Assembly (NCBI GenBank): GCA_025449115.1
Contig: JAHLKC010000094.1
Coordinates: 62,001 to 126,000, forward strand
DNA from: Chytridium lagenaria
Lineage: Eukaryota; Chytridiomycota; Chytridiomycetes; Chytridiales; Chytridiaceae
Direction of reading: 5' to 3'
DNA: 64,000 nt
The notes under the pieces are model-generated. The model made no database searches, had not been told where the DNA came from, and saw only the letters and a program-made list of their open reading frames with translations. How positions within the stretch are numbered: position 1 is the stretch's first letter; each line of letters begins with the position of its first letter. Position numbers and translations under genes: made by a program. This document shows positions 38,113 through 60,922 of this stretch, piece by piece.

Positions 38113-38147
38113 TTTATTGGGTATGTCAAAGTTCAACAAGAGTTGAT

Positions 38148-38173
38148 GGCCGCTTGGACGTCAAACGTGGGCC
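38148..38173 (-). promoter_or_regulatory. Type I 3' hairpin downstream of gene A
   Basis: On the minus strand GGCCC-ACGT-TTG-ACGT-CCAAGC-GGCC. The outer GGCC arms and the inner ACGT arms can each pair. The same element follows genes F, G and L and a relic gene, with changes that keep the inner pairing. Confidence 0.55.
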
Positions 38174-38231
38174 TTGAAGGAAAGAAGGTAAGGCTGCCGA
38201 AGGAGCATGGAGACGTAAATTGCTCGATGAT

Positions 38232-38354
38232 TTACTGATTGGAAGCCGTGGTGGAGGTGGTAGGCTTGGTGGCGGGAGTACGTTTGCTCGAGATGGTCTT
38301 GACGGCACCGGCGGCAACGATGGTGGTCATGGGGACGTTGGAGAAGGAAGGCAT
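38232..38354 (-). CDS. MPSF peptide A (40 residues)
   Basis: ATG at 38354, stop TAA at 38232. The peptide starts MPSFSNVPMTTIVAAGAVKT and ends ISSKRTPATKPTTSTTASNQ: a hydrophobic, helix-like first half and a basic Thr/Pro/Ala-rich tail. Its mirror partner L in the right arm has the same 40 residues. A TATAATAA lies about 96 bp upstream (38450-38457, reverse). It is divergent from gene B. I do not recognise the family; the peptide has no cleavable signal sequence and no cysteines. Confidence 0.75.
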   Translation of the reverse strand: MPSFSNVPMTTIVAAGAVKTISSKRTPATKPTTSTTASNQ

Positions 38355-38886
38355 TTCTTGAGAGTTGGTTTGAGTGTGAAGGAGACTTTGGGAGATGTTG
38401 ACTTTTGATGTTGTTGTGAATGTGGGAAGTAGTGGGTGATGGAGGGGTGTTATTATAGTAAAATTAATAACCCTTTTAACCCTCATAAACATTTTTCAAC
38501 TTTTTTGAGAAAAGTTTAAGGGTTTGTCAGGAAAACAGTGCAAGACACAAACCCTAGTTTTTAAGTTATGAGCATGCGTCAGGTTAAGCCATTGTTGGTT
38601 GGATCTTCCATCGTGGCGATATTCGTTGTGGCGATGCGTCCTTCAACTTCGGGACATATCTAATTATCCGCGTAATGACCTGTGGTGAAGTCGTGAGACT
38701 CTCCAGTCTCCACGTATCGTTAACTAGGGTTGACGCTAACCCTCATAGGCGGATATAAAAAGGCTCCCTGTCATTACTCTGTTTCCTATTACCACTCAAC
38801 GCAACAGCCTTTCATCTCTTTGACCTTCAAGTCTTTACACAAACACCTCTCAACAGTCAAACCACCCTCTCAATAAATCACTAAAA
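38355..38886. promoter_or_regulatory. Bidirectional promoter A/B
   Basis: TATA boxes on both sides: 38450-38457 (for A) and TATAAAA at 38754-38760 (for B). The doubled element TCGTGGCGAT/TTGTGGCGAT lies at 38611-38635. AGGGTT words lie near each gene (38551 reverse, 38726). The 5' leader of B is long and pyrimidine/A-rich. Confidence 0.6.
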
Positions 38887-39004
38887 ATGCCTTCATTCTC
38901 CAACGTCCCCATGACCACCATCGTCGCCGCCGGTGCCGTCAAGACCATCTAACAAGCGTACTCCCGCTACCAAGCCTGCAACAACCACCCCTGGCTCACT
39001 CTAA
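38887..39004 (+). pseudogene. MPSF peptide B, 2-base deletion
   Basis: The ATG at 38887 opens MPSFSNVPMTTIVAAGAVKT-I and then meets TAA, because ACCATCTCTAAC of partner K reads ACCATCTAAC here. Without that loss the frame would continue, as in K, through a TPATKPATTTPGSL tail to the TAA at 39002-39004. As written it makes a 21-residue peptide. TATA box at 38754. Confidence 0.65.
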
Positions 39005-39738
39005 TTATCACCAATCTATCAAGACTGGTTCTTTCGCAAGCGTTTTCCTATTTCGTCGTGTTCAAGGGTCCGATTTTGCGACCATTTTCATCGATATACC
39101 ATGTCTATCTCTCATGTATAATCTCGCATAATTATACCCCAATAACATATTATTGAATTATTATCATATAAATTATTGTTTTTTCATAAGACAGTGTTTC
39201 AATTTAAGTGCGATGATAATATGGAGGATATGACATACATCAGCTCTGTGTGTTTAGTCCATACGCATCCCCGATAGTTATGCATCTCTTCGGCGTTGAA
39301 AGTTTGTTTGCTCTTCCATTCTGGTTCATCTTCTTATTTGAACGACCATTTTGCGAATAATTCTTAAAGAGCTTGCAAAAGAAAAAACGAAGCGTGAACA
39401 ATGTAGAATAATTTATAACGTTGAACAGCAGTTATTACGAGAGGATGGCATCGTATTTATTGAATTGTACTTTAATGGCTCATGATCATAGCTTCAATTT
39501 CCCTGGCGTGCGACTCTTGCGGTGCGACTCTTGCGGCCCATATTTAATTATGGGTGGGATAGGCATCTTGACCTCACGGCGCCATTTTGTGAAGGGATCA
39601 AAAGATGGCGGGATCCCATTGTTCGACCGACGTCAAGGTTCCGACTGAAGGTATATTATGATTCACTTGGTGGTGTCGTCATAAGTATTGATCTTTGTTG
39701 TTGTTTCAAGAAAGCGTTTACTGGTTTGATGAAGTCTT
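39005..39738. other. Spacer between pairs A/B and C/D
   Basis: Contains the B-type 3' element (CAAGGGTCCGATTTTGCGACC, 39062-39082). From 39180 on, the stretch is almost identical to 59240-59780 in the right arm. A 75-codon frame (39421-39648) is open in both arms but lacks a proper ATG at its start. A 13-base direct duplication (GCGACTCTTGCGG) lies at about 39508-39533. Confidence 0.6.
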
Positions 39739-39840
39739 TCAGTCAGGAGTTGAGGCGGAAGCTGCGGTGCGCTTGGCGTTCGTGATGGATTTGACGGCAC
39801 CGGTTGCAACGATGGAGGTGGTCATGGGGAAGGAGGGCAT
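39739..39840 (-). pseudogene. MPSF peptide C, premature stop
   Basis: Second subfamily: MPSFPMTTSIVATGAVKSIT then NAKRTAASASTPD. Codon 34 is TGA where partner J has TTA (Leu). Beyond it the reading frame would end in KTSSNQ and TAA as in J. TATAAAA at 39942-39948 (reverse), about 100 bp upstream. Confidence 0.65.
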
Positions 39841-40253
39841 GGCTGATACTTGGTTTTTGGGTGGGTTGAGTGTGTTTTTGTTAAAGGTGAAGTTGAGGTT
39901 GGCTGTGACGAGTGATAGAGATACAGATGAATTGGTTCCCCTTTTATAAGAGAAAACTATAGCATGCGTTTTGAGGGGTGGTTACTTGTTGGTATGGGAG
40001 GTTGTTCAGACGTTTTGTTTTCATGGATTTGACAAACCCCATGAAACCCTGAACGATTCTGTCTTCTGCGCTCGACTTTGCCTCCACGCAAAAAAACACG
40101 CCAACATCCATTCTAAATCCAAACGTGATATTGGTTCTTCAGCTGGTATAAAAGCAGAGGGTTTATTATCATACTTTTTCTCTCCTACATACCAACCAAC
40201 AACAACAAACCATCGCATTCCGCACTTCAACCAACCCACTCAAACCACCAACA
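39841..40253. promoter_or_regulatory. Bidirectional promoter C/D
   Basis: TATA boxes at 39942-39948 (for C) and TATAAAA at 40147-40153 (for D). It lacks the doubled ATCGCCACGA element of the other pairs. A CATGGATTTGACAAACCCCATG near-palindrome lies at about 40022-40043 and recurs in promoter I/J. Confidence 0.55.
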
Positions 40254-40369
40254 ATGCCTTCATTCCCTATGACCACCTCCATCGTTGCCACCGGTGCCAT
40301 AAGTCCATCTCCAAACGCTCGTCTCCCGCAACATCCGCATCCACGACGTCCACTACATCCGCTCAATGA
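40254..40369 (+). pseudogene. MPSF peptide D, frameshifted
   Basis: The ATG at 40254 reads MPSFPMTTSIVATGAI and then leaves frame. Compared with partner I, two single bases are missing in CATAAGTCC (CATCAGGTCC in I). The original stop TGA lies at 40367-40369. TATA box at 40147. Confidence 0.6.
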
Positions 40370-40965
40370 TCTGGATTAAAAACCTGTTCAAACGATCAAT
40401 CAACACTCTCTACAATCGTCTTGCGACATACGTCATTGGAATCGTTTATGATCCTTGGAACAACTTTACGGCAGGTCGATCAACGGTGACACTTGGATAT
40501 TCCTAGGCGCTGTCAGGACTCTCGAGATCGTCGAAAATTTACGTTCCGGCCAAGCGCTGACGGAAACGCCTTTTATCAACACGCGGACAAGCTTATCCCG
40601 GCCAAAACGCTGAAACTCACGCTTGTTTACTTTATTGTGATAAATACCACATGTTTAATGAAGTAAATATTAAATAAATGCTGTGTCGATTAAGAATAAA
40701 ATCCATAATGCGACTTGTTTTAGAAACGATCAAGATGCTATGATTTTGACTGCGTTAAACCAGAAACCATTTAATATGAGTTAGAAGTATTTTTTTACGG
40801 TCAAATGATATCTTCACGATCTAATATTGGGACAAGTATTTATTCTGTCCGTGAATATTACGTGAAAATGTATATGGTTGCAGATAGGGTCGCCTAATTA
40901 ATTTATTTTAGAGACCATCGGGATTGCCATGCGTACGCGTTGTGTTCGCTACAGACAAGTCCTGA

Positions 40966-41863
40966 AGTTGGATTCTATGGATTCCGCCAAATACCTCCCA
41001 CGGCTTTTGGATCTTCTTCATGCTATATGCGATAATTATTTGGATGATTTTCGTGAAAGCAAAAGATCTGTTAGGCAGCAATTCTTGACTCAATTTGCGC
41101 ACAACTTCTTTTAACAAGGTTTGCGGCCTATTCCTTCAAGCTCACTGTGGATAAGTTTTTCCAAGCCTTTGACGGCGTGTGATTTTGAGGGGAAAAATCA
41201 AAAATCAAAACGAAACGATCGAAACGAAACTCTTCAAGTCTTTTCCCATTTAAACGGCGCAATATATACGTATCTGTGTGTTCCAAAAAAAAGGCAGTCA
41301 CTGGGTTTCAAATATTGTCATAAGCTAACATTTTCCGGGTTTATAATACTCGAATGTCATCTCTAATCTACTCGGCATCGAAGGCAAAAAAACAAACAAC
41401 AACAAACACAAAAAACAAACAAACAGTCAAAAATATGTCAGCAAGTGTCTAGTCGAAACGAAAACAAAAAAAAAAGAAAAAAAAAAAAAGAAAAAAGAAG
41501 CGCCTTTCATCCTTACCGAAAAAAAAAAGAAAGAAAAAAAAAATAACATTTACTATCAGCTCCACTGTTTTTCAAAGCGTTTTCCCATCCCACATTTCTT
41601 GACGTTCGCGAAAATATCTGCTGCATAGAAAGTGTGATCGCTGATATAAAAACAAAAAAAAAAGGAAATGGAGGAGTCGCCGTACGAGGTGGCAAACTAT
41701 ATTCTCGAAAGTGTTGCTTTCATTTTTGTTTCAAAGTAAGTCTTAAACAAAAGTGATAAAACGAACAGCCAGGAGTAAACTTCTTTTAAATTCTTTTTCA
41801 ACTGATATGGTGTTAATCGCTCCAGGGCACCTTTGCTTCAAATGTCGTTGGCAGGATCCAACT
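40966..41863. mobile_element. Insertion of about 0.9 kb with 11-bp inverted ends
   Basis: The left arm has about 910 bp here where the right arm has 14. The candidate ends are AGTTGGATTCT (40966) and AGGATCCAACT (41853-41863), inverted with one mismatch. The inside is A-rich (41385-41545) and encodes no transposase that I can see. No clear target duplication. Confidence 0.4.
41385..41545 (+). repeat. A-rich low-complexity tract
   Basis: Runs of AAAC and AAAAAG within the left-arm insertion. Confidence 0.8.
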
Positions 41864-42329
41864 AATGAAATAGGAGTATTACATTTATTTTGATTACTGT
41901 ATTGTAGGAACTTGAATTATGGTAAAATATTATATTAATATAATCCATTCTTAGGATATGGTTGAATTTGAATTCTACGTGAATTTTAGTTCATACCAAT
42001 TTATGCTATTCTACGTGCTTTTTTTGAGAGCTTCTTCTAATACACTACAGGGAGTAATAGCTATGCCATTCATCGAATACGTGAACGATAAAAATAAACA
42101 AAAATTCAAAATGATAATTGACTCAATGGTTTATTATCGGGGTATGATTATGCGAACATTATACAGGAGAGATAGACAAATAGGTATTTTGATGGTCGCA
42201 GAATCGGACCCTTGAAATCGAGAAGCAGGAAAGAAGCTTGCGAAAAAGCCAGCCTTGATAAATCGGTGATTTTTAGAGCCAGGGGTGGTGGTTGCAGGCT
42301 TGATAGCCAGAGTACGCTTGTTTGAGGAT

Positions 42330-42458
42330 TTACTGGCTGGAAGCGGCGGCGGTGGTGTTGGTGGGCTTGGTGGCGGGAGTGCGCTTGCTTATAGAGATGG
42401 TCTTGACGGCACCGGCGGCGACGATGGTGGTCATGGGGACGTTGGAGAAGGAAGGCAT
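42330..42458 (-). CDS. MPSF peptide E (42 residues)
   Basis: ATG at 42458, TAA at 42330. It reads MPSFSNVPMTTIVAAGAVKT, then ISISKRTPATKPTNTTAAAS-SQ. It has one extra codon (IS doubled) relative to partner H. ATATAAAAA at 42556-42564 (reverse), about 100 bp upstream. Divergent from F and carries the type II 3' element. Confidence 0.75.
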   Translation of the reverse strand: MPSFSNVPMTTIVAAGAVKTISISKRTPATKPTNTTAAASSQ

Positions 42459-42992
42459 TTTCGATGATATCTTAAGAGGATGGTTTGAAATTAGAGATGT
42501 GTTTGCAAGAAGAGGCTATGAGTTGAATGATGAAACAGCGGTGAGGGAAGTTGGGTTTTTATATCCGCGGGATGAAAGTTAGAGTAAACCCTAATCACAA
42601 TGAGTAGTGGAGATCAAATCACCATCACAACTCACGGCAATTACGTGGATGCTCTTGAAAGGAAAGGCATCGCCACGAGACATCGCCACGATGGATCATT
42701 CATTTTGCATGTTTTTTTTAACAGGTGTCGGGAACGGATGCTCAAAAACTTTAAACCAGGGTTTTTGCTGTTGAGCTACGCCACAGGGATTCTGACAAAC
42801 TGGCCATTATTTGTCAACAACCCTACACATAATTCTTCCATCGTATTCTCTAAAACGTGGGGTAGGGTTAAAGAAGCTATAAATAGGCACATTCATCCTC
42901 TACACAAAAATTCCTCATTCACAACAACAACATCAAAAGCCAAACACACCTCCTTAAATCTCCTTAACACTCAATCCAACCCAACTCAAGAA
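42459..42992. promoter_or_regulatory. Bidirectional promoter E/F
   Basis: TATA boxes at 42556-42564 (E) and TATAAATA at 42878-42885 (F). Doubled ATCGCCACGA at 42669-42691. AACCCTAA at 42587 and AGGGTTT at 42758. Confidence 0.6.
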
Positions 42993-43118
42993 ATGCCTTC
43001 CTTCTCCAACGTCCCCATGACCACCATCGTCGCCGCCGGTGCCGTCAAGACCATCTCTAGCAAGCGCACTCCTGCCACCAAGCCTAACAACACCACCGCC
43101 GCTGCTTCCAACCAGTAA
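42993..43118 (+). CDS. MPSF peptide F (41 residues)
   Basis: ATG at 42993, TAA at 43116-43118. Same first half as A, with the tail SSKRTPATKPNNTTAAASNQ. An upstream in-frame stretch is open to 42600, but the TATA box at 42878 and the similarity between copies begin the gene at 42993. Type I 3' hairpin follows. Confidence 0.78.
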   Translation: MPSFSNVPMTTIVAAGAVKTISSKRTPATKPNNTTAAASNQ

Positions 43119-43172
43119 ATCCGCAAGCCTCCTTGATACATAAACACCCATATCCTTTAATTTCGTTTCCAA

Positions 43173-43198
43173 GGCCCACGTCTGGCGTTCAAGCGGCC
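43173..43198 (+). promoter_or_regulatory. Type I 3' hairpin downstream of gene F
   Basis: GGCCC-ACG-TCTGG-CGT-TCAAGC-GGCC; outer GGCC/GGCC and inner ACG/CGT can pair. Confidence 0.5.
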
Positions 43199-43240
43199 AT
43201 CAAACCATGTCGTTGACTTCAATACCCAATAAAACATATT

Positions 43241-44797
43241 TTGTTAATGCTAAATAATTTCCCTGTCTTTCGCAATTTAATCGATATAAAATGCACCTCT
43301 CACTTCAAAACCATTTAGTGGTTGCTACTATTATTGCCAACTCAGCCAATAATACTCAACTTTAAGACAAACACCCTCATCCATTTCTTGCCAGAATCTA
43401 GAGTAACAAACGACGTGACGATGTACCCATGGACCGATATAGCGGGAATCAGCTTAACAAGCCTTGCATGACTCAATAAATACTACGTAGGAGTGAAATT
43501 GTAACCAAAGATAGTGCTTATAATAGATTATGTTCAAAAGCATTAATGATGGCTCGGTTCTGGCAACGTCGGCCGCGTCGCTGTAAATGCATGCTATGTC
43601 GATGGTAACTTCATGGACTGTGGATGCTATGAAGCTTGTTATAAAACCATATAAGACAAGCGCGGCCTTCCAGGAAATGTTTGAAAGGAGCATAATCGCC
43701 CGGTAAGCAGCGTGAGGGGTTTCACCCCGAGAGCTGTTGTTTGGGCGGTATTCTCGCCTGGCATACTGCGGAGTGTGAACTGAAATGCGCGTGCGCGGGA
43801 TGTTTCGGTGCGAAAACTTGAGCGTGGGTTTTTGTTTGGGGTGCGCGGCATATTGCTGCAGCCAAAGGAAATGTTATCCTCTGATAATGTATTGCGGCGT
43901 GGATTGGCCGCGTGCAATATTCGGGATTCTCGCCAGCGAATTTTATTTTTTTGGGGTTGCAAAATTTTCTTAATTTGGACCAATCAACGCATTTTGCATT
44001 TATTTATTTTAATTTGTGGAGGTGGAGACAACATATTATTCTTTTCGTTTCCCAATTATATGTTGCCACTCTTCCCATCCCCCCCCCCTCCCCTTGGGTA
44101 TTGAAGGTAACAAATACATATTGAAAGAATTTTTTGGAAATTTTGGCAGGAGGGCGAAATGACGAGTAGTCAATGTGCATTGGTCTATCACCTGATCCTG
44201 GAGTCTCCCTCACCGTTGTACCCTGATCTTCATTGGTGTCTGCTTGATGCTGACAAGACCATGGACTTCAATAGGGCCAAGCTGTGGGATGATGGATCAG
44301 ACGTGTTAGATCAATGCACTGGACTGCTCGAGCATTGACTTCGTCCCTTCTGATCACTCATCTCTCCATACAAAGAGTTCCGATCACTGATCTCTCCATC
44401 CAGAGACCTCTTGTTTAACAACCAGAGGGTTCAATCTCCTCTTTCCTCTCATTCATCTCACCGTTCACTATTGGCACAGAGGCCCTCTTTGTTGGTCTTG
44501 TGTAACACCCAAATCTGGTGAATTTCAGGTGTTTGTATTTGTTTACGATTCAGATCTCTTGTGATTAATAAATGAATATAGATATTATTATTAATAAAGA
44601 TGCAAATAAATGCACCTGTTCAATACGGATACCATGTTTGAGATGCAGACTTTGATTGTTTCTAACCTTGAAAATTCATTTCAGTCCTTCCGTTGTTTAA
44701 GAGTGCGTCCTATGAGTGCGTTACATGGAACTGTGCGTGGAGGAGTGAATGGACGAAGTCGTCGGCGAACGAGGTTATCTTCAGCATCGTTCATCAA
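43241..44797. other. Left part of the core, no recognised gene
   Basis: Unique sequence between the left arm and the Helitron gene. 43680-43900 is richer in G+C, with open frames on both strands that I cannot place. 44140-44340 reads for about 60 codons (MTSSQCALVYHLILESP...) without a known match. The 5' end of the Helitron should lie in this stretch. Confidence 0.4.
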
Positions 44798-47700
44798 ATG
44801 AGTGAGCAAGATGGGGGTGACGAGAGTGATAGCTCTGGCGATGATAGCAGGTGTAAATAACCTTTTTTTTAATGACTTACTGTTATAAGTGCATTTTCAT
44901 TCTTGTCTGAAAGACGAATTGGGAAGGATAGACGAAGAGTATGATTTTGCAATTCCATCGGGGGAGTTTCGTCTTGCCGCCCATGATGCTTTTTGTGAAA
45001 AGATGGATATAGTAATTTGCAGTTGACTCCATGCACAGTTTGTGAGATGGGTTTTTTTGCTGATGATGTTGTAATGCATCGGTTGAATAATCGTATTATT
45101 GATGTATGAATTTTATTTGTTTAATAATATTTACCTTTGCACAGTATTTTTCAACTAGTCTTGACGAACGATGCAAATGTTCCTCAACTGTTACGAGATC
45201 AATACGACTGCTCATTTGTTGATATACGATTAATCCGGGTTGTTGGTTGTATCCACAAGGTATAAAGTTATAATGATATTTTATGTAATGTTTTTCAGGT
45301 TTTCTTGTAGACGGTGTTAACTCATTTGTGACTATTTGCAAATTTGTTATAAATCTCTTCAAAGCTCATACGAGCACCGTCATCGCCGTCATAGTAGACC
45401 ACCTAAATTATCGATCGCCAATGGCAATTTTCGTTGGGTTTTTACCGGAAGAATTTTCTACGGCAACAGACCTCGATGAGAAAAATGATTGCTTTAGCGC
45501 ATCCCGTCGATATATTTCTACGATTTTTTGTGGTGGGCAAAAGGTGATCAAGTCCCACAATTATTTTGTCAGGAATACCGAAGGGCCCGTTGTCACTATG
45601 ATGGGGGATATTGTCGGGAAGGTTAAAATTGTGATTATCGGAAATACCACCCCTGAAGCAAAAGCGTTCGCATTGAAAGAGAAACTGCAGACGTCGAATA
45701 TGCTAATCGGTTTCTTGATTTCTTCTTAACGAATCACCAAGATTACGTTGAGATTTCCCCGCGAACAGGGTTTCCTACATTTCCCAACGGTAATATTTTA
45801 TTAAAAATGGATAGTATTAATATTGTAATAGGTGTTGTGTTGATACAACCTCTACGGGACAGTATCATGATTCGGGATTGCCGAGTAATTTGGAAGAAAA
45901 TATCACCTTTGATGACTCCAGCTACAACGTTCCCCCGCAAGCTTCTTTTGACAACGCTTCCGCATCCACCGATTATTGTAGTATTCGACGAACGTCATTG
46001 ATACAGTCAGAGACAGCAACCAACGAGAATAATGAGAGTTTTTATATACTTCGTCGTTCCAGCGATTTTTTAAGCGATTCAAATTGGAGTCACGCGCCAA
46101 AGGCGTATCCTTGTCTCTTTCCGTTTGGTCGTGGAGGACCTGCCGAATTTCGTTCTGTTGCTGTCTCTGTCAATGCTTAATTCGTCGATACCTAAGTTTG
46201 CATAATTCGAGGTTCCCAACAGCATTCGTCATTTTTGTTTGCCCGCAATGGATTGGATGGGACGAAAAAGAGCCAATGGGAAACTATCTTATTTATTGAA
46301 GTTGAATCGCAGACTTGCTGAGTGTGGACAAATTAATCAAGACCGACATTAATCGATGTTTGCACTATGCTCGGTCTGTGAGTGAAGCGGAAAAACGTGG
46401 AGCTCAATTACCGTATCCTGATGACAGAGTACGCGATGTACTTGAATTCCGAAAAGGCATTACCTCCCGCCGAACAAAGCTTCTATAATTCATCGAAATC
46501 GCAATCTATGAATCGAGGTCACGTTCTTAATAAGCTTCGTGAACACGGTGTTTTTCAAATTTACTTCACCATATCTCCTGACTCTGGCGGGAACTTTTGA
46601 CATTGCGGTGATGCATTCTCAGGTTTCTTTACCTGACATACTGGCTCGAAATACTTTGAATCTTCCGAATATCGATAAACTGAAGGAAATTTCAGCTACG
46701 TATCCATTTTCGTGCGCACGAAGATTTGACCGATTGCTACGAGTAGTGATTTCCGAACTTTTGAATTTTGACGTGCGTTCCGGTCGTCCTAAGGGTACTG
46801 GAATTTTCGGAATCGTTAAAGATTTTGCTGCTGCGGTTGAAACACAGCAATCAGGACAATTGCACGCTCATTTTTGTCGTGTGGTTACATGGATTTCATC
46901 TTACCGCAAAAAGACAACCTTGACGCGTATCGCAATGATGATCAACGTCGAGAAAAGATAAATCAATATCTAAATCAAATTTGTAAAGTTGATCCGCCTT
47001 GTTATCCTCCGCAAATTCGTGGAGAAACGGGAAACATTCGATGCCCCGATTGTGACGGAGCTGTTTTACCGTTACTGCCGGAAGAAATTCCTTTTTCAAG
47101 TGTACCAAAGACATCGCAGGAATTCTCAGTATAGTCCGCATCCATTAAGCAAATGTTCCACATGCGCGAAGATGTTTGGAGAGACGGATCTTATAAAATA
47201 TTACCTCCAACAATGTGGAAGTGCTTCAGGCATCTCAGTGGATCCAAAAGATACTGAAAACTACCGATATAGTTAAATGCACTACGCCACATCCTGGAGA
47301 ATATCTGGCTCTACCTCGTCTTTTGTTTACAATAATCATTACGCTTTTATTGCTTCGATTTCAAGTGCATGACGCATTTCACACGTCCTCGTGTAATAAG
47401 AAGAGTTCGCGAAATCCACGAGGATTAGCTTGTCGGATGTTAATGCCACGTGAATGCGTCTACGGAGACTTAACTATAAATGACGACGGAACAATTATGC
47501 TGCCTAGATCATGCGGATCAGAGTATATGAATCCATATATTTGGGATTTGTTGATATCTTTACGTTGTAATTCATGACGTTCAATTTTTGATGGGTAATA
47601 CCTCAAAAAAACGTTAGCCTTTACATATGTAAATATATCACAAAAATCCCATATGTCGTTTCAAAAATCATAGTGCGTTTGCTTGTGCCGCATTTGATTA

Positions 47701-48340
47701 TTCGTTTCGAAAAGTAGAAGCTAGAAGTAGTAACCAAGAAGTTGCGAATGAGGAGCGCGGCGCCATATTTTTAAGAACACTACTTAATAGGTTGACGAAC
47801 AAAATGGAAATATCTGGACAGCTATGTGCTTTGTTTCTGATGCGCGATAGTTCTTTCTATTTTGGTCAGCAACCCATCTCCATCAATATGAATCCGGTTT
47901 TAGCCTTCCTATCGGACGACAATTTTATTGATATTCGTGTATCTTCAGGAGCCTCGGAAGACATCATTCACCCTTTACCACGCAACCACGTCATTTATGA
48001 TAACTGGTATCGGCCAGTATTTTGGAGAATGAACATTTCTATGGTTTTGTTAAGAAATACCAATCTCACCCGGGGATTTCACAGAATATCAATGGTCAAT
48101 TCTTGCACGGGTATCCTTTTAATCGCCATCTCGCGAAAAGAACACAAGCTTCTACAATCACATTGCTTGGTCAACCGATTCCAACATCAGAAACGAATGA
48201 AGAACTACGTTCGAAGATGCTATACCTTTTATTTTGTCCACATCGACGAGATTATTGTATTAGCATCGAATCCTGGTCAGAGTCTTTACGAGTATGGCGA
48301 GCAGGACATCCAAATCATCCCGGCAATCTTGCCTTAAACA
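44798..48340 (+). pseudogene. Helitron Rep part (N domain and HUH nuclease), decayed
   Basis: The first plausible exon starts MSEQDGGDESDSSGDDS at 44798. Later pieces give TPCTVCEMGFFADD, a VGKVKIVIIGNTT stretch, and LFPFGRGGPAEF, the Helitron family LFPYG.GG word, at about 46110. Then come HNSRFPTAFVIF, FQIYFTISPD (about 46553), GRPKGTGIFGIVKDF and GQLHAHF (46854-46874), which supplies the two His of the HUH motif. The later QVHDAFHTSSCNKKS...CRMLMPRE (about 47365-47450) is the typical cysteine/H block before the helicase. More than ten frame changes or stops break this part. Some gaps look like introns, but the density of stops (for example 47580-47800) suggests a dead copy. Confidence 0.8.
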
Positions 48341-48343
48341 AAT

Positions 48344-50668: not shown

Positions 50669-50704
50669 ATAAAAACACCTATAAAAACAAGGGAAAAAAA
50701 AACC

Positions 50705-50985
50705 ACATCAAGTTGTATATAAACCATCACGTTATCCGACCCATAAACACATTATCCAAAGTTACATGCAACGTGGATAGCCGCATTTCCAAACAAAGTC
50801 GGATACCTCAATAACACTTAAACCAACAAATTTATATATAAACTACCGCGTTATCCAACCCATAAACGCATTATCAAATTCGCTGCATGATCAAATAAAG
50901 TCGGATACTTTTAATGAATATTGCAAAAAACAAAACATATAGACCATCACGTTATCCGAACACATTAACCGAACGCAAACGTATA
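50705..50985. repeat. Degenerate tandem repeat, about 105-120 bp
   Basis: Three copies of an ATATAAAC.A.C.CGTTATCC.ACCCATAAAC block, at about 50714, 50837 and 50937. After the first two, AAAGTCGGATAC recurs. It lies between the helicase stop and the next gene and might belong to the Helitron 3' end or the promoter of the next gene. Confidence 0.65.
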
Positions 50986-51185
50986 TAAACATAGAAAAGA
51001 TAAACAAAAAAAGTTATCTCAACAAAAAATAATGACTCTTCCAAAAAAACACGAAACAGATGTAAACTAGTACCAAACCACATAAAACTAACAAAATCAG
51101 ATAAACGAAGATGAAAAAGAGAAAAAACGATTGAAAACCGCACCGGAAGCAAAGGTCGTCGTAGAAGAGTTCCCGAATTCGAAAA

Positions 51186-51898
51186 TGATACAAACCGCAG
51201 AAAGCATCCTCATGGAACAACCCACCCCCACCACAAATCTCCAACAAACAGACCTTAACGAAATCCCTCCTTCCATCCTCCATCGATTAGCCAGAAAACT
51301 CCTAATCCTCCATAAACACTTTCCATACACCATATCCATCATCCATCAACACCTCCCAACCATCAAGCTCGGCGGATCGAAATCCACATTGTGTGTTGAA
51401 GGTCAAAGCAAAGCCCTTCAGTTTTACCTCCTCGGATCAGTCGATGATTTCAACTTCGAAGGACGGCTCATGGCAGGATCGATGAAATACTTCATGAACC
51501 TTCATCCCACCGCCGGAAACGTCAAGTACATCAACAACATCCTGAAGAAGCTCAATCACGGAGAAGTCGGCGTATATAAGGAATCCATCTCGTGCACCAT
51601 GTTTACGACCACGACATCAAGAACACCCAACAACGGTAAGGTACTACTTAAACAAATCATGTTAACATAATATATAGTCCAAACTTACTTCCTCATGGAG
51701 GAAGACTCAAGTTTGAACCCCATGACAGCTTCCAAGAACCGCACCATCAAGATCGACATCGGAAACATTGTCCTAGTACCTGTCACCATCTCTGCGGGAT
51801 CGAAAACATCGTACCTGAATATGACGGGAGTAGTTTACGTTATCGACAACAGCAAAAACTACTCCCCAACATCCGGAACCAACATTCCGGACTTCTGA
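51186..51898 (+). CDS. Unrecognised two-exon gene downstream of the Helitron
   Basis: ATG at 51186 (MIQTAESILMEQPTPTTNLQ). The frame stays open upstream to about 51090 but without an ATG. An intron at 51635-51678 (GTAAGG...TATAG) joins exon 1 to VQTYFLMEEDSSLNP, and the TGA is at 51896-51898. The product is about 220 residues. The first half is helical with PPSILHRLARKLLILHKHFP. The middle reads GRLMAGSMKYFMNLHP. The end alternates like beta strands (TIKIDIGNIVLVPVTIS, then YLNMTGVVYVIDNS). No domain is recognised. The undamaged frame next to a Helitron suggests either an accessory gene of the element or an independent resident gene. Confidence 0.6.
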
Positions 51899-52020
51899 TC
51901 ACCTGAAAACAGCTTATGCAACTTGCAAACAGCACTCGCAAACATGTATACCCTCGGCTTATACCAATAAATTGCTTATGCAGAACCAAAACGATATGTG
52001 CGGGAAACCCCGAGAGGATG

Positions 52021-52047
52021 GGGCCCCCCCCCTTCTGGGGGGGTTTT
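52021..52047. other. C-run/G-run perfect hairpin
   Basis: A run of C is followed by TTCT and a run of G, able to form a 7-bp all-GC stem. It lies about 120 bp past the unknown gene. A GC hairpin is expected near a Helitron 3' end, but the CTRR end is not evident here. Confidence 0.4.
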
Positions 52048-52152
52048 GCAGTCACAACTATGAAGGTACCGCGGTCCCCGGGAGAATTACTTTGTGAGAT
52101 TAAAGGTGAGGTTCTCAGGCTCAACCTGCGATTACTGTATTCAGCTTGTCTC

Positions 52153-52641: not shown

Positions 52642-52726
52642 GTTTATTTTACCAGCGAGGCTGCACTTTGACACTAAGAATTCCTACACACACAACCACC
52701 TTTGTTTTACACTTGGTATATTTCTA

Positions 52727-55627
52727 ATGACTGTGATGGAAGCTTCTTACGACAGTGCTGTCGACCTCACCTCCATGCTTGCAGACTCGCTATCTATTGA
52801 TGACCGTGACAAGGGTACTCCTGACGCTTGGGTCTCAAGGCATAAGGATCTTATCCGATTGACTGGGAGGTAATTCGCATTCCGTCATTCTTATGCCCAC
52901 TCTACTTTGCTCTATAACTTTCTCACTCATCTTCCACTGTATTTTTATTGGTAGGCACCCATTCAACTGCGAACCTCCGCTCGACCTGCTTATGAAGGAT
53001 TGGGTAACTCCTGCTCCGATTCATTATGTGAGAAACCACGGTGCAGTCCCGAAGCTTGAATGGGACAGTCACAGGCTCACCGTTGACGGGTAATGAATAA
53101 CACAGCATAATACAAAAGAGACTCACCTTCAACAATTATGATAAAACAGATTCGTCAACAACCCAAGAACCTTTACCATGTCAGACCTCCTCGCCCTTCC
53201 GAAATCCTCCTTCCCCGTCACCCTCGTATGCGCAGGCAACCGTCGTAAAGAACAAAACATGATTAAACCCTCCCTCGGTTTCTCATGGGGTGCCGCCGGC
53301 GTCTCCACATCGGTCTGGTCAGGTGTTCTTCTGGTCGATCTGATCCAAGCGTGTGGAGGTCTGAAAGCACCGGACGATTCCTGTCTTTATGTCACGTTTG
53401 AAGGGCCATCGCAGGAACTACCGAAAGGCATGTATGGTACCTCGGTGAACGCTGCGACGGCGCTTGACCCGAGATCTGACTTGCTGATTGCTTTTGAGAT
53501 GAATGGCGAGAGGTTGACCCCGGATCATGGCTATCCCGTACGTGTGATTATTCCCGGGTTTATCGGGGGTAGGATGGTGAAATGGTTGGGGAGGATCACG
53601 GTGACGGGGAAAGAGACGGACAGTATTTACCATTACAAAGACAACAGAGTCTTACCTGTCCAAGTGACGGATGCAGAAATAGCAGATGTAATTATTCACC
53701 GATTTTTTATGTTTTATTTGAACGCGCAGTTTATAACAGATGTCTGACTTTTTACTTCTTTATCTAAAAATAGAAAGATAACTGGTGGTATCATCCATCT
53801 CATATCATCAACGAACTCAACATCAACTCTGCCATCTCCCAACCCATTCACTCTGGCTCTCTCCAAATCCCACTCACCCCGACGCCAGCCGCCACTTTAC
53901 TAACTCTCAGTGGGTACGCCTACACCGGTGGCGGCCGCTCTATTACGCGTGTCGAGGTTTCCTTTGATCAAGGCGCGTCATGGATTCCCACCACCCTCCT
54001 CCCACAACCCTACCCGAAACGCCATATGGGTACCCGAAACTGGTGTTGGATGTGGTGGGAGATCCAGATTGACGTTGTGGAGGCGTTGAGACTTGAAAAA
54101 GATGAGGATGTGTGGAGATGTGGAGAGGTCTGTGTGAGAGCTTGGGATTCTAGTTTGAATACGCAGCCAGAGAAACCGACCTGGAATCTAATGGTTCGTC
54201 ACCTCCGTTTCCTTGCTTCAAGTGTCTGTTTTACGCGACTTTTGATCCTTACTTTTGTTGGTACTTTTAAAGGGAATGATGAACAACCCATGGTTCCGCG
54301 TCCGTCCCACACTGTCTCAGGTCGACGACTGTACACTGGAGATGACGTTTCATCATCCCACTGTTGCCGGTCCTACTCCAGGTGGTTGGATGACTCCGGG
54401 CGATTCTCCATGGGAGTACAACTCGCCCCGCGCTGTGGCTCCTATCGCACCTGTACCCGTCGAAGAAGTGAAGGTCGATGAGGATGACGAGCAAGAGATG
54501 TTGATATGGCCAGAATTTACGATGGAAGAGTTATCCAAGCATACAACCGACGACGATTGCTGGATTGTTGTTAACGGCAACGTTTATGACTGCACAGAGT
54601 TCATGGAAGATCATCCTGGAGGTAAGATAACATCTTTCTTCAATAAGCGTCTTACACTCGTTCAGGCGCTAGCAGCATCCTCCTTTCGGCAGCCACAGAC
54701 GCAACTGAAGATTTCACCACCATCCACTCTCCCAAAGCTTTTGAAATGCTTAAGAAATACTTTATCGGAACCATCTCCCCGTCTGCTCTTTTCTTACCAA
54801 ACACATATAACCCACTTCGCTTCGTCTCCTGCCAAACCCTCACCCCAACCACCCGTCTCATCCGGTTCACCACCCCCCAGAACTTTTCCCTCCCATGCGG
54901 TCATCACGTCTTTTTAAAAATCACAATCCCAGCTTCCCCTCCCGTCACCGTCATCCGCGCATACACCCCTATATCCGTTCGCGACACCATTGATTTCCTC
55001 ATCCGCATCTACGGAACCGGCGACGCGGCGTCCGGTATTGGCGTTGCGTCGCGAGCATTGTCTCGAATCGAAACAGGGGGTGTTGAAGTGATGATGAAGG
55101 GACCTGTTGGAGATATTGAGTATAAAGGACACGGGGTGTTTGATATGGATAGAAAGAGTTGCCATACACGAAGGATTGTGATGATGGCTGCTGGGACTGG
55201 GATTACACCTTGCTGGAGGGTGTTGGAGGGTGTTGCGAGGGAGTGGGAGAGTGGGGAGGTGGCACCGGTTGTGACGATGCTTTATGCGAATAGAAGTTTT
55301 GAGGATGTGTTGATGAAAGAGGAGCTGTTTAAATTAGTGGCGGATGTGAATGCGAGGGTGAAGAAGGTTGTGGTGAAAATTTTTGTGGTTGTTTCCGGTG
55401 GGATGGGTGGGGAGGATGTGGGTATTGATGGGGTGAGCGTTGTTGACGGTCGTGTTGATGGCGATATGATGAAAAGTATTTTGGGAACGTGTGGGGATGT
55501 TGGGGAAGAGAATGGGGTTTTAGAGGGGGATGTTGGGTTGGTTTGTGGTTCAGATGGGTTTGTGGAGGCTTGTTTTGAGGGGTTGAAAGGGTGTGGGTTT
55601 GATGAGAGATTGTTGGCGGCGTTTTAG
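52727..55627 (+). CDS. niaD: Assimilatory nitrate reductase
   Basis: Reduces nitrate to nitrite with NAD(P)H in the cytosol, the first step of nitrate assimilation. From the ATG at 52727 the molybdenum-cofactor domain has [11 protein letters not shown] (Mo-ligand Cys), [16 protein letters not shown] and [20 protein letters not shown]. The dimerisation domain follows ([19 protein letters not shown]). A cytochrome b5 domain has [12 protein letters not shown] and [10 protein letters not shown] with both haem His. The FAD/NAD module has [28 protein letters not shown] and a CGSDGF near the end. Six exons are separated by short introns (for example 53091-53150, 53690-53773, 54196-54273, 54622-54665), and every junction restores family sequence. 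No frame break was found, unlike most genes here. Compared with typical enzymes, the NAD-site CGP is CGS. Confidence 0.95.
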
Positions 55628-56544
55628 AGGGACGGGAATACTTTTTTTTTCTAACACATTATCCTATATTTTTTTCTTTCCCTGTTGAGATTCTGACTTC
55701 TCAGCGCATTATCCTGCTTTTACTTTATTTTTCTGGCTTCTGGTATCTCACTGGACACCTTGTCCGGTTTTCTTTTTCTTTTTTTTTTTGCATCATAAAT
55801 ATTTGTTTGGATAGCATAACATGTAGATTATGATCCTCTTTGCTGTTTTTTATTCTTTCTTACTTTTTTTACCATGTGATATCCACTTCAAGCCAGTAAC
55901 CGCACATCAAGGTCATGACGTACTCCAACTCTCACGATGCTCCACAAGCCAATCAGATTTGTGAACGAACGGGACTTGATGTCGGTCCGCAGGTCGATCT
56001 TGATCCATCAAAGCTTTGGAACCTACCTACGTTTCGTATTTGGCTTCACAAGACCAATTGCATCCAAAGTCGGCCGACTCTGATGTCAAGATTAAAATAT
56101 GGCTATGCGGAAGGGAAGACCGGCCCCAATATTGGCGGCGGCAGTTTGCATGTATAGCGTCACATATGAGCACCATCGTTTTGTTAACATAATGTTTAAT
56201 AAAACTAAACTTGAGATATGCTATAAACACTTTTCCTTCTGTATTGAATCTGTATTTAAGATAATTTAATATGTTCTTCCCTACAGCTTCGTTGTATGCT
56301 TTCAGAGTATTATTCTGTTCATCAAAAGGCATCGTTTTGTCCATTATTATAATTTCTTGCAACGCGGTTTATTTTGAACTTTCATAAATATTATCAGCCT
56401 TGTGCCGTTAAAGATAAATCAAAATGGACCCAAAACGGTACGTATTTTCAAACGCTGATAAAGCAGATCCAAACAATTCAATCTTCCTGTACACTTTCAC
56501 CAACACATAAATATCAGAAGACGGGAACAGAAATGAGCTTCAGT
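55628..56544. other. Spacer between nitrate reductase and the right arm
   Basis: T-rich 3' flank, then unique sequence. An 80-codon frame at 55915-56157 (MTYSNSHDAPQANQICERTG...) is not recognised and may be chance. Confidence 0.4.
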
Positions 56545-56588
56545 AAACATTTGTTTATTGGGTATTGAAGTTCAACCACATGGTTGAT

Positions 56589-56614
56589 GGCCGCTTGAAC
56601 GCTAGACGTGGACC
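56589..56614 (-). promoter_or_regulatory. Type I 3' hairpin downstream of gene G
   Basis: Same element as after F, with one outer base changed (GGTCC for GGCCC). Confidence 0.45.
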
Positions 56615-56661
56615 TTGAAACGAAAGGAATGGATATTGATGTGTCAGAAAGGCTTGCGGAA

Positions 56662-56787
56662 TTACTGGTTGGAAGCAGCGGCGGTGGTGTTGGTGGGCTT
56701 GGTGGCGGAAGTGCTCTTGCTAGCGATGGTCTTGACGGCGCCGGCAGCGACGATGGTGGTCATAGGGACGTTGGAGAAGGAAGGCAT
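56662..56787 (-). CDS. MPSF peptide G (41 residues)
   Basis: ATG at 56787, TAA at 56662. The first 20 residues match A. The middle differs (IASKSTSATKPTNTTAAASN-Q), losing two basic residues. The TATA box of its partner F is missing here, through a short deletion at about 56890-56902. Confidence 0.7.
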   Translation of the reverse strand: MPSFSNVPMTTIVAAGAVKTIASKSTSATKPTNTTAAASNQ

Positions 56788-57311
56788 TTCTTGAGTTGGG
56801 TTGGATTGAGTGTTAAGGAGATTTAAGGAGGTGTGTTTGGCTTTTGATGTTGTTGTTGTGAATGAGGAATTGTGTAGAGGATGAATGTGCCTTTTTCTTT
56901 AACCCTAGCCCACGTTTTAGAGAATACGATGGAAGAATTATGTGTAGGGTTGTTGACAATAATGGCCGAGTTTGTCAGAATCCCTGTGGCGTAGCTCAAC
57001 AGCAAAAACCCTGGTTTAAAGTTTTTGAGCATCCGTTCCCGACACCTGTTAAAAAATAAACATGCAAAATGAATGATCCATCGTGGCGATGTCGTCGTGG
57101 CGATGCCTTTCCTTTCAAGAGCATCCACGTAATTCCGTAGCCCGTGATGGTGATTTAATATCCACTCATTGTGATTAGGGTTTATTCTAACTTTCATCCC
57201 GCGGATATAAAAACCCAACTTCCCTCACCGCTATTTCATCATTCAACTCATAGCCTCTTCCTGCAAACGCATCTCTAAATTTCAAACCATCCTCTTAAGA
57301 TATCATCGAAA
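56788..57311. promoter_or_regulatory. Bidirectional promoter G/H
   Basis: Doubled TCGTGGCGAT at 57081-57104. TATAAAAA at 57206-57213 for H. On the G side the sequence that is GAAGCTATAAATAGGCAC in F is reduced to GAAAAAGGCAC. ATTAGGGTTT at 57174-57183. Confidence 0.6.
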
Positions 57312-57437
57312 ATGCCTTCCTTCTCCAACGTCCCCATGACCACCATCGTCGCCGCCGGTGCCGTCAAGACCATCTCTAGCAAGCGCACTCCCGCCACCAA
57401 GCCCACCAACACCACCGCCGCCGCTTCCAGCCAGTAA
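57312..57437 (+). CDS. MPSF peptide H (41 residues)
   Basis: ATG at 57312, TAA at 57435-57437. Tail SSKRTPATKPTNTTAAASSQ. Directly after the stop comes CTCTAACAAGAGTACTCC...GGTCACTCTAA, which matches the coding 3' half and stop of the K/B type. The gene is therefore a recombinant whose old 3' coding half is now untranslated. Type II 3' element at 57559-57579. Confidence 0.78.
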   Translation: MPSFSNVPMTTIVAAGAVKTISSKRTPATKPTNTTAAASSQ

Positions 57438-58589
57438 ATTCTCTAACAAGAGTACTCCGGCGATGCAAGCCTGCGACCAACACCCCTGGGTCACTCTAAA
57501 ACATCAGCGATCTATCAAGCCGGGGTTTTTCGCAAGCTTTTCTCCTAATTCATAGTTTTCAAGGGTCCGATTCTGCGACCATTCGATATACCTATTTGTC
57601 TATCTCTCTTGTATAATGCTCGCATAATCATACCCCGATAATAAACAATGCTCGCATAATCATACCGCGATAATAAACCATTGATTCAATTATCATTTTG
57701 AATTTTTGTTTATTTTTGTCGAACGTTAACGTATCCGATGAAGGCATAGCTATTACTCCCTTATTGTATTAGAAGAAGCTCTCAAAAAAAAGCACGTAGA
57801 ATAGCATAAATTGGTAGAAATTAAAATTCACTTGCAATCTGAAAGAATTCAACCAAAACTTATGAATTGATTATTTTCCTATAATGTAATTGCCTACAAT
57901 ACATTAATCAAAACGAATGTAATACTCCTACTTAATTTTATCTGGTCTGTAGCGAACACAACGCGCGTGGATGGTAATCCCGATGGTTTCTAAAAATAAT
58001 AGGCGACCCCATCTGCAACCATACATACTTTTACAGACGGCCGAATAGATATTAATGCTTTGACCCGACATCGGATCATAAATGTTCCACTTGACCGTAG
58101 ATAATACTTAACCCTTAGATTATATAGTTCTTATCCGACCGATGTCAAAATCATAGCATCTTGATCGTTGCTAAAACAAGTTGCATCATGGATTAAATTT
58201 AAATTGAATACAGCCTTTATTCAATATTAATATACTTCCTTAAAACGTGGTAGTCTATTATTCAAGACGTGGTTCTTATCACAACAAAATAAAACAGGCA
58301 TGAGTTTGGCGTTTTAGCCGGGATAAGCTTGTCCGCGTAATTGATGGAAGTCGTTTCCGTCACCGTTTGGCCGGAACGTATAAATTCGACGATCTCGAGA
58401 TTCTTGATGCAGCGTATAGGTATATATCCAAGAGTCACCGATGTCGACCCGCCGTAAAGTTGTTCAGAGGAACATCATTAACGATCCAATGACGTTTGTC
58501 GGAAGACGATAGTAGACTTTGTTAGACCTTTGTCGCAAGACGATAGTAGACTTTGTTGGAATGATCGTTAAAACGTTTTTTGAACCATA
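57438..58589. other. Spacer between pairs G/H and I/J
   Basis: Uninterrupted counterpart of the left-arm spacer. A near-exact duplication of about 33 bp (AATGCTCGCATAATCATACC...GATAATAAAC) occurs at 57617-57680. No gene recognised. Confidence 0.5.
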
Positions 58590-58706
58590 TCATTGAGCGG
58601 ATGTGGCAGACGTCGTTGATGTGGATGTTGCGGGAGACGAGCGTTTGGAGATGGACCTGATGGCACCGGTGGCAACGATGGAGGTGGTCATAGGGAATGA
58701 AGGCAT
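58590..58706 (-). CDS. MPSF peptide I (38 residues)
   Basis: ATG at 58706, stop TGA at 58590. Reads MPSFPMTTSIVATGAIRSIS, then KRSSPATSTSTTSATSAQ. TATA box at 58803-58809 (reverse). Intact partner of the broken gene D. Confidence 0.75.
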   Translation of the reverse strand: MPSFPMTTSIVATGAIRSISKRSSPATSTSTTSATSAQ

Positions 58707-59110
58707 TGTTGGTGGTTTGAGTGGGTTGGTTGAAGTGCGGAATGCGATGGTTTGTCGTTGCTTGTTGGTATGTTGGAGAGAAGATGTTGAAAATCCCCCT
58801 GCTTTTATACCAGCTGAAGAGCCAACATCACGTTTGGATTTAGAATGGATGTTGGCGTGTTTTTTTGCGTGGAGGCAAAGTCGAGCGCAGAAGACAGAAT
58901 CGTTCAGGGTTTCATGGGGTTTGTCAAATCCATGAAAACAAAACGTCTGAACAACCTCCAACAAAGTAACCACCCCTCAAAACGCATGCTATAGTTTTCT
59001 CTTATAAAAGGGGAACCAATTCATCTGTATCTCTATCACTCGTCACAGCCAACCTCAACTTCACCTTTAACAAAAACACACTCAACCCACCCAAAAACCA
59101 AATATCAGCC
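58707..59110. promoter_or_regulatory. Bidirectional promoter I/J
   Basis: TATA boxes at 58803-58809 (I) and TATAAAA at 59003-59009 (J). Shares the CATGGATTTGACAAACCCCATG near-palindrome with promoter C/D and lacks the ATCGCCACGA pair. Confidence 0.55.
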
Positions 59111-59233
59111 ATGCCCTCCTTCCCCATGACCACCTCCATCGTTGCAACCGGTGCCGTCAAATCCATCACGAACGCCAAGCGCACCGCAGCTTCCGCCTCA
59201 ACTCCTGACTTAAAGACTTCATCAAACCAGTAA
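59111..59233 (+). CDS. MPSF peptide J (40 residues)
   Basis: ATG at 59111, TAA at 59231-59233. Reads MPSFPMTTSIVATGAVKSIT, then NAKRTAASASTPDLKTSSNQ. TATA box at 59003. Intact partner of C. Confidence 0.77.
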   Translation: MPSFPMTTSIVATGAVKSITNAKRTAASASTPDLKTSSNQ

Positions 59234-59942
59234 ACGCTTTCTTGAAACAACAACAAAGATCAATACTTATGACGACACCACCAAGTGAATCATAATATAC
59301 CTTCAGTCGGAACCTTGACGTCGGTCGAACAATGGGATCCCGCCATCTTTTGATCCCTTCACAAAATGGCGCCGTGAGGTCAAGATGCCTATCCCACCCA
59401 TAGTTAAATATGGGCCGCAAGAGTCGCACCGCAAGAGTCGCACGCCAGGGAAATTGAAGCTATGATCATGAGCCATTAAAGTACAATTCAATAAATACGA
59501 TGCCATCCTCTCGTAATAACTGCTGTTCAACGTTATAAATTATTCTACATTGTTCACGCTTCGTTTTTTCTTTTGCAAGCTCTTTAAGAATTATTCGCAA
59601 AATGGTCGTTCAAATAAGAAGATGAACCAGAATGGAAGAGCAAACAAACTTTCAACGCCGAAGAGATGCATAACTATCGGGGGCGTATGGACTAAACACA
59701 CAGAGCTGATGTATGTCATATCCTCCATATTATCATCGCACTTAAATTGAAACACTGTCTTATGAAAAAACAATAATTTATATGATAATAATTCAATAAT
59801 ATGTTATTGGGGTATAATTATGCGAGATTATACATGAGAGATAGACATGGTATATCGATGAAAATGGTCGCAAAATCGGACCCTTGAACACGACGAAATA
59901 GGAAAACGCTTGCGAAAGAACCAGTCTTGATAGATTGGTGAT
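59234..59942. other. Spacer between pairs I/J and K/L
   Basis: Nearly identical (reverse complement) to 39005-39738. The 75-codon frame is also open here (59303-59530, minus) with one amino-acid change. The K-type 3' element is at 59867-59887. Confidence 0.6.
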
Positions 59943-60062
59943 TTAGAGTGAGCCAGGGGTGGTTGTTGCAGGCTTGGTAGCGGGAGTACGCTTGTTAGAG
60001 ATGGTCTTGACGGCACCGGCGGCGACGATGGTGGTCATGGGGACGTTGGAGAATGAAGGCAT
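59943..60062 (-). CDS. MPSF peptide K (39 residues)
   Basis: ATG at 60062, TAA at 59943. First half as A; tail ISNKRTPATKPATTTPGSL. TATAAAA at 60221-60227 (reverse), 160 bp upstream, further than in other copies because of a 36-bp duplication in the leader. Intact partner of B. Confidence 0.77.
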   Translation of the reverse strand: MPSFSNVPMTTIVAAGAVKTISNKRTPATKPATTTPGSL

Positions 60063-60626
60063 TTTTAGTGATTTATTGAGAGGGTGGTTTGACTGTTGAA
60101 GAGGTGTTTGTAAAGACTTGAAGGTCAAAGAGATGAAAGGCTGTTGCGTTGAGTGGTAATAGGAAACGGAGTAATGTTGCGTTGAGTGGTAATAGGAAAC
60201 GGAGTAATGACAGGGAGCCTTTTTATATCCGCCTGTGAGGGTTAGCGTGAACCCTAGTTATAACGATACGTGGAGACTGGAGAGTCTCACGACTTCACCA
60301 CATATCATTACGCGGATAATTAGATATGTCTCGAAGTTGAAGGACGCATCGCCACAACGAATATCGCCACGATGGAAGATCCAACCAACAATGGCTTAAC
60401 CTGACGCATGCTTATAACTTAAAAACTAGGGTTTGTGTCTTGCTCTGTATTCCTGACAAACCCTTCAACTTTTCTCAAAAAAGTTAAAAACGTGTTTATG
60501 AGGGTTAAAAGGGTTAATTCAACTATAAAAACACCCCTCAATCACCCACCACTTCCCACATTCACAACAACATCAAAAGTCAACATCTCTCAAAGTCTCC
60601 TTCACACTCAAACCAACTCTCAAGAA
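60063..60626. promoter_or_regulatory. Bidirectional promoter K/L
   Basis: TATA boxes at 60221-60227 (K) and TATAAAAA at 60534-60541 (L). ATCGCCAC pair at 60348-60373. A 36-bp tandem duplication (GTTGCGTTGAGTGGTAATAG...) at about 60141-60210 that the left arm lacks. AGGGTT words at 60251 (reverse) and 60428. Confidence 0.6.
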
Positions 60627-60749
60627 ATGCCTTCCTTCTCCAACGTCCCCATGACCACCATCGTTGCCGCCGGTGCCGTCAAGACCATCTCGAGCAAACG
60701 TACTCCCGCCACCAAGCCTACCACCTCCACCACGGCTTCCAACCAGTAA
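60627..60749 (+). CDS. MPSF peptide L (40 residues)
   Basis: ATG at 60627, TAA at 60747-60749. Residues are the same as in A. The end of the gene and its stop (GCTTCCA.CCAGTAAATCAT.GAGCAATTT) are duplicated in tandem at 60735-60815. Type I hairpin at 60856-60881. Confidence 0.78.
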   Translation: MPSFSNVPMTTIVAAGAVKTISSKRTPATKPTTSTTASNQ

Positions 60750-60855
60750 ATCATCGAGCAATTTTCGCCCATCTCCGCCAAGGCTTCCAGCCAGTAAATC
60801 ATAGAGCAATTTACGTCTCCATGCTCCTTCGACAGCCTTACCTTCTTTCCTTCAA

Positions 60856-60881
60856 GGCCCACGTTTAACGTCCAAGCGGCC
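60856..60881 (+). promoter_or_regulatory. Type I 3' hairpin downstream of gene L
   Basis: GGCCC-ACGT-TTA-ACGT-CCAAGC-GGCC; inner ACGT/ACGT pairing retained. Confidence 0.55.
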
Positions 60882-60922
60882 ATCAACTCTTGTTGAACTT
60901 TGACATACCCAATAAAATACAT

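Follow-up and report, generated by a model that had tools for sequence, protein, structure and literature searches.

Mirrored arms of tiny genes in the chytrid Chytridium lagenaria form a palindromic array probably homogenised by gene conversion

Introduction

Mirror-image gene arrangements have been described in animals and plants. In Drosophila, the Hsp70Aa/Ab and Hsp70Ba/Bb pairs combine tight palindromic linkage with purifying selection on the coding sequence and conversion between mirror copies; according to a review of these pairs, crossovers between the copies tend to be harmful and are lost, so that conversion remains, and the palindromic orientation may limit changes in copy number (PMC3924832). 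The ampliconic palindromes of mammalian sex chromosomes and of the willow W are larger relatives in design, with large inverted arms, multi-copy genes and arm-to-arm conversion, as set out in PMC7023750. Here we describe an array of tiny genes in the fungus Chytridium lagenaria, found in a 64,000-nucleotide stretch (the window) that spans positions 62,001-126,000 of contig C94 (JAHLKC010000094.1) in a genome of 41.9 Mb and 356 contigs. Two inverted arms, with six tiny genes apiece in mirror order, enclose a core of 13.3 kb, and this architecture is a new fungal example of the known kind of palindromic gene array. We put at roughly three in four the probability that the locus is a lineage-specific tiny-gene array that grew by duplication, both inverted and direct, and is kept homogeneous by conversion.

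The locus resembles the Hsp70 pairs in its palindromic linkage, in selection on its coding sequences and, apparently, in conversion between mirror copies. It differs from them in that its protein is unrelated, each inverted arm carries six genes, a third arm lies in direct orientation, and 13 kb separate the inverted arms around another gene. Compared with sex-chromosome palindromes the array is much smaller, and the near-identity along whole arms seen in mammals is not found here, since arms 1 and 2 are 77.8-100% alike depending on the segment; the parallel is one of architecture only, drawn from sequence. Tandem birth-and-death families (also named in PMC3924832) likewise hold local copies of which some have decayed, as genes B, D and R (frameshifted) and C (shortened) have here; unlike them, the present array is mirrored at the level of gene, pair and arm, and its identity is a mosaic.

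Results

Self-comparison with BLAST matched 38110-40959 to 60919-57942 inverted (88.6% over 3,010 columns) and 41864-43233 to 57937-56554 inverted (87.4% over 1,425 columns), and the homology ended at the arm edges. One shuffle of arm 2, compared with arm 1, gave no match at E 1e-3. Twelve start sites of the gene family were mapped in the window, and the two sets of six mirror each other exactly in order and orientation (A- B+ C- D+ E- F+ / G- H+ I- J+ K- L+). Together, these results confirm the proposal of a first-pass annotation, made from the sequence, that the arms carry 12 genes in reversed order and orientation, A facing L through to F facing G (Table 1). Its count of six tiny genes per arm holds for start sites; only nine of the 12 genes (A and E-L) are intact, since C ends prematurely and frameshifts relative to their partners affect B and D. 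The array also does not end at 60922, as had been thought. A third arm, carrying genes M, N, O and P, begins about 1 kb beyond the window end, at contig positions 127,039-129,985; it runs parallel to arm 2 and has no equivalent of K and L. Arms 2 and 3 are direct repeats, whereas arms 1 and 2 are inverted. A partial fourth arm on contig C173 holds gene Q, which is full length, the frameshifted gene R and a piece resembling the promoter upstream of D. Confined to arm 1 is a 0.9-kb A+T-rich stretch (40961-41863, G+C 0.36).

The mirrors are nested. Within a pair, each gene is an inverted copy of its neighbour; pair A/B, in turn, resembles pair F/E inverted (A-F 78%, B-E 76%), and C resembles D inverted (80%). 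A midpoint-rooted tree of the six A/B-type blocks joined A/B with L/K (100/100), separate from the other four, and grouped F/E, G/H and M/N against Q/R with weaker support (80/91).

Identity between the arms is patchy. The segments of arms 1 and 2 that are most alike are the E gene (100%) and the noncoding B/C spacer at 39346-39735, where 389 of 390 bases agree (99.7%), while arm 3 matches the two at 326/380 and 325/380 (86%). Near-identity extends over inverted tracts of 719 and 260 bases. The E/F promoter also groups arms 1 and 2 (96.7% vs 89.6 and 90.6%). At the D gene, by contrast, arm 1 is nearest to arm 3 (116/119, vs 112/119 to arm 2). The 3′ flanks are about equally diverged: behind D, the identities for arms 1-2, 1-3 and 2-3 are 77.8, 81.5 and 75.4%, and behind E the corresponding values are 88.4, 86.8 and 89.8%, so that the inverted pair appears neither clearly older nor younger than the direct pair. 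The near-identity first noticed for the spacer 39180-39740 was thus borne out, as was the greater divergence of the inner end, where F and G agree at 117 of 126 bases.

The third arm permits a polarised test of the earlier suggestion of an old duplication followed by recent conversion in part of the arms. Informative sites were labelled by the arms that they group (1+2, 1+3 or 2+3), and runs of like labels were counted against shuffles. The labels were clustered, in support of that suggestion: 376 sites fell into 155 runs where 238 were expected, and none of 5000 shuffles gave a number as low. The 319 noncoding sites alone gave 121 runs vs 198, and a wider set of 503 sites, poorly aligned columns included, gave 230 vs 322. 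Runs of 30 and 24 sites unite arms 1 and 2 at 39385-39781, and a run of 12 sites unites arms 1 and 3 at 40135-40302. This patchy identity indicates gene conversion between arms, as we infer, rather than repeated re-duplication.

The family comprises 18 copies found, 16 on C94 and two on C173, encoding proteins of 38-42 residues. A genome-wide search with a degenerate DNA pattern that encodes the conserved part of the protein gave 17 matches (reversed-pattern control, 0) and may miss more diverged members; copy M, with one substitution within the pattern stretch, brings the count to 18. In an alignment of the 14 full-length members, the invariant residues are MPSF, P-M-T-T, V-A, G-A and, farther on, an I and an A; the tails are rich in Ser, Thr, Ala and Asn. 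The four proteins examined for charge (F, I, J and K) are cationic, with net charges between +3 and +4 and no more than one acidic residue apiece. The genes are under purifying selection. Indeed, among 11 type-1 copies (R being left out), the proportion of nonsynonymous differences (pN) over the first 21 codons was 0.004, vs 0.082 for synonymous ones (pS), and the first 15 codons of all six type-2 copies showed no nonsynonymous difference against a pS of 0.20; frameshifted B and D were counted for the part before the shift. A codon index toward histone usage, referred to five of six histone pieces (L077 omitted), was 0.57-0.76 in 11 of the 13 full-length C94 genes (Q was unscored) and 0.33-0.57 in eight ordinary open reading frame (ORF) pieces, suggesting that the type-1 genes are probably highly expressed.

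Scans of 14 members against Pfam and NCBIfam and a profile search of the PDB returned no match. A search of 5.8 billion proteins gave 276 candidates, among which the sole family match was the array's own gene G (BC829DRAFT_446361). That nothing turned up elsewhere counts for little, given that annotation seldom includes proteins of 40 residues and that other fungal genomes lay outside the search. The accessible parts of the literature returned nothing on this locus. The family thus appears to be undescribed, within searches blind to unannotated small ORFs of other fungi. A known structured RNA or tRNA as the source of the array was rejected: Rfam gave no match at gathering score, and ARAGORN no gene, in the window.

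In its public record gene G has 73 residues, apparently with an intron, the GTAA of which lies across the stop codon. This GTAA, a possible 5′ splice site, is kept over the stop in several outer genes. A conserved second exon, as the record would imply, was considered and provisionally set aside. We prefer the reading of 38-42 residues without a second exon, because M has no AG at the matching acceptor and F carries an extra base after it. Behind the stops of E, H and N (N at L009:1834-1959) lies an unused second copy of the C-terminal coding stretch, which remains coding in K; the reading-frame end of these three genes looks as if it had been replaced or duplicated by short recombination.

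The divergent starts on C94 lie 398-564 bp apart. A TATAWA box stands 91-120 nt before the ATG in 14 of the 18 genes (mean 0.5, maximum 4 in 1000 shuffles), the exceptions being A, B, G and K, of which B and K carry the box farther out. The motif AACCCT, the core of a telobox, occurs 34 times in the nine promoters (7.66 per kb) vs 44 times in the remaining ~80 kb of 84 kb (0.55 per kb). With one promoter per type (A/B, C/D, E/F and Q/R), 17 were counted vs 1.1 expected. C/D-type promoters are poorer in it, holding one or two apiece, and the full AACCCTA is missing from them. In the whole 41.9-Mb genome there are six occurrences of the 13-mer ATCGCCACGATGG, one in each A/B- or E/F-type promoter, and none of its reversed control. 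Among 59 genome-wide matches to a combined telobox-plus-TATA pattern, nine belong to the family.

The claim that the core holds a Helitron and a nitrate reductase was upheld by Pfam, with Helitron_like_N (29.8 bits, cut-off 28.9) at 46512-46961 and PIF1 helicase domains at 48338-50398; nitrate reductase is a name inferred from the domain combination of the second gene. The Helitron is an insertion within the core, separate from the arm ends, because it has its own ends: its 5′ end (GAGGGGTTTCACCCC) at 43714 is common to copies on C20, C69 and C82, and its 3′ hairpin end at 52053 to copies on C20 and C78. A copy of ~1.9 kb on C20 has the appearance of a relative with an internal deletion. Counting the helicase piece itself, 43 pieces of the genome match it, often several per place. 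Without the Helitron, arms 1 and 2 would lie ~5 kb apart. Searches of the genome did not turn up the full core a second time; DNA matches outside C94 were Helitron-derived pieces only, and a protein search with the molybdopterin piece found one further place, on C140, 39-43% identical.

We regard the nitrate-reductase-type gene, placed between arms 1 and 2, as a bystander. Redox-enzyme genes do occur among the array's neighbours (Pfam), and a ferric-reductase-type gene (Ferric_reduct, FAD_binding_8) lies between arms 2 and 3, at 61707-63603. The idea that the C173 copy is tied to nitrate metabolism was rejected: among the four ORF pieces of C173 and six of C94 beyond the window that were scanned, Pfam named only a P-type ATPase (C94, L010).

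Table 1. Positions of the arms, genes, promoters and core features within the window.
Feature	Position	Strand	Remarks
Arm 1	38110-43240	+	genes A-F in three divergent pairs; BLAST self-comparison, multiple alignment
Gene A	38232-38354	-	40 residues
Promoter A/B	38355-38886		teloboxes; 13-bp element at 38607-38619
Gene B	38887-38952	+	frameshifted relative to K; reads 21 residues only
Near-identical tract	39007-39987		putative gene-conversion tract; partner 58964-59942 inverted; 974/979 aligned bases
Gene C	39739-39840	-	early stop at 33 residues (J and P: 40)
Promoter C/D	39841-40253		TATA box toward each gene
Gene D	40254-40379	+	frameshifted relative to I and O
Gene E	42330-42458	-	42 residues
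Promoter E/F	42459-42992		TATA box toward each gene; 13-bp element at 42681-42693
Gene F	42993-43118	+	41 residues
Helitron in core	43714-52053	+	ends set by partial copies elsewhere in the genome
Nitrate-reductase-type gene	53145-55627	+	pieces with molybdopterin, cytochrome b5, FAD and NAD domains (Pfam)
Arm 2	56550-60919	-	genes G-L; inverted copy of arm 1
Gene G	56662-56787	-	41 residues; public record BC829DRAFT_446361
Promoter G/H	56788-57311		consensus TATA toward H only; 13-bp element at 57077-57089
Gene H	57312-57437	+	41 residues
Gene I	58590-58706	-	38 residues
Promoter I/J	58707-59110		TATA box toward each gene
Gene J	59111-59233	+	40 residues
Gene K	59943-60062	-	39 residues
Promoter K/L	60063-60626		13-bp element at 60362-60374
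Gene L	60627-60749	+	40 residues

Discussion

The genes are arranged in divergent pairs, each on a shared two-way promoter of 400-560 bp. An arm is built of three pairs, and the arm is present three times in the same neighbourhood, once in the opposite orientation, with a partial fourth elsewhere. We propose that conversion among the arms keeps genes and promoters alike, while 3′ flanks drift; some copies have decayed. The likely benefit would be one of dosage, that is, many copies of a small, positively charged protein of ~40 residues that is probably abundant.

The main rival to conversion is that arms 1 and 2 were made alike by a recent second duplication, in which the A-B-C block was copied anew. 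Since the block of high identity reaches the outer edge of both arms, such copying may explain part of the pattern, and arm 3 lacks the A/B part altogether. However, the opposite patch at D, where arm 1 goes with arm 3, and the E/F promoter block mean that several separate events would be needed, and we consider re-copying rather unlikely as the source of the likeness, and less likely than conversion. A simple error of assembly, with one arm a misplaced copy of the other, is scarcely credible: the arms differ by substitutions, by indels and by the A+T-rich stretch present in arm 1 only, homology stops at their edges, and the third arm differs from both.

The inverted arms might instead serve as a switch, homologous recombination between them flipping the 13-kb core and so altering expression of the nitrate-reductase-type gene or a neighbour. 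The near-identical inverted tracts are substrate enough for such recombination, which makes flipping possible, and the mosaic suggests that arms 1 and 2 do pair. As an account of the locus, however, a switch is improbable. The assembly has a single orientation, with no second full core; F and G face the core by their 3′ ends, so that a flip would bring no arm promoter onto the core gene; and the inverted pair, given the direct third arm, is one geometry among several. No recombinase was recognised among ten window proteins scanned with Pfam, most window ORFs lying outside that scan. Still harder to sustain is the idea, raised in the first-pass annotation, that a very large mobile unit ends in the arms, here with the nitrate-reductase-type gene as its cargo, even though that gene does have mirrored ends on either side and the core does encode a helicase of transposon type. 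Family copies were found at two loci only, arms 2 and 3 are direct repeats, and the Helitron ends, which match other genomic copies, lie inside the core and exclude the arms. Within 25 bp outside the ends we saw no convincing target-site duplication: the longest shared words were 6 bases for arm 1 left and right, 5 for arm 1 left and arm 2 right, and 7 (ATGAAAA) for arm 3 left and right, with none of at least 4 for arm 2 left and right. The arms were on the same grounds rejected as the ends of the Helitron, and the restriction to two loci led us to discard a dispersed transposon or miniature inverted-repeat transposable element (MITE).

Several observations weigh against our preferred reading of a duplicated, converting array of expressed genes. 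Four of the 18 copies are damaged, the other 14 being full length. The clustering of site labels in the 3′ flanks (189 sites, 93 runs vs 126) may partly stem from alignment, as these flanks are gappy. The codon bias of I and O is marginal (0.43 and 0.42, p 0.049 and 0.044), and the top ordinary ORF pieces (0.57 and 0.51) overlap the lower end of the family. The promoter motif counts are not independent, as family copies share ancestry. Telobox-plus-TATA is not enriched genome-wide (59 matches vs 114 for a control pattern), and four stretches of 500 bases that lie upstream of histone matches contain no AACCCT; we therefore identified no known regulon and rejected a general class of telobox promoters in this genome. 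A fifth fetched stretch, L082 (2,931 bases), has two AACCCT and is no promoter test, because it lies downstream of two convergent histone genes.

A more ambitious version of the dosage idea, which we offer tentatively and hold to be doubtful on balance, is that the array encodes a new, very abundant cationic protein of ~40 residues under a two-way promoter type of its own, the converting array acting as a dosage reservoir. The promoter type proposed would combine a telobox cluster with a TATA box ~105 nt away from either start and, in A/B- and E/F-type promoters, with the element ATCGCCACGATGG. In Saccharomyces, Tbf1 binds clusters of TTAGGG, whereas Candida Tbf1 requires a palindrome of them, as described in PMC2834713. 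That a Tbf1-like factor acts at the array promoters is speculation.

Genes as small as these are easily overlooked; indeed, a public protein record was found for only one of the 18 copies. The locus adds a clearly delimited family of orphan proteins, and ordinary transcriptomics and proteomics could address how abundant they are and what they do. Its architecture parallels the gene palindromes of animals and plants in a compact fungal form, in which three arms, one of them inverted, allow conversion to be read from a single genome.

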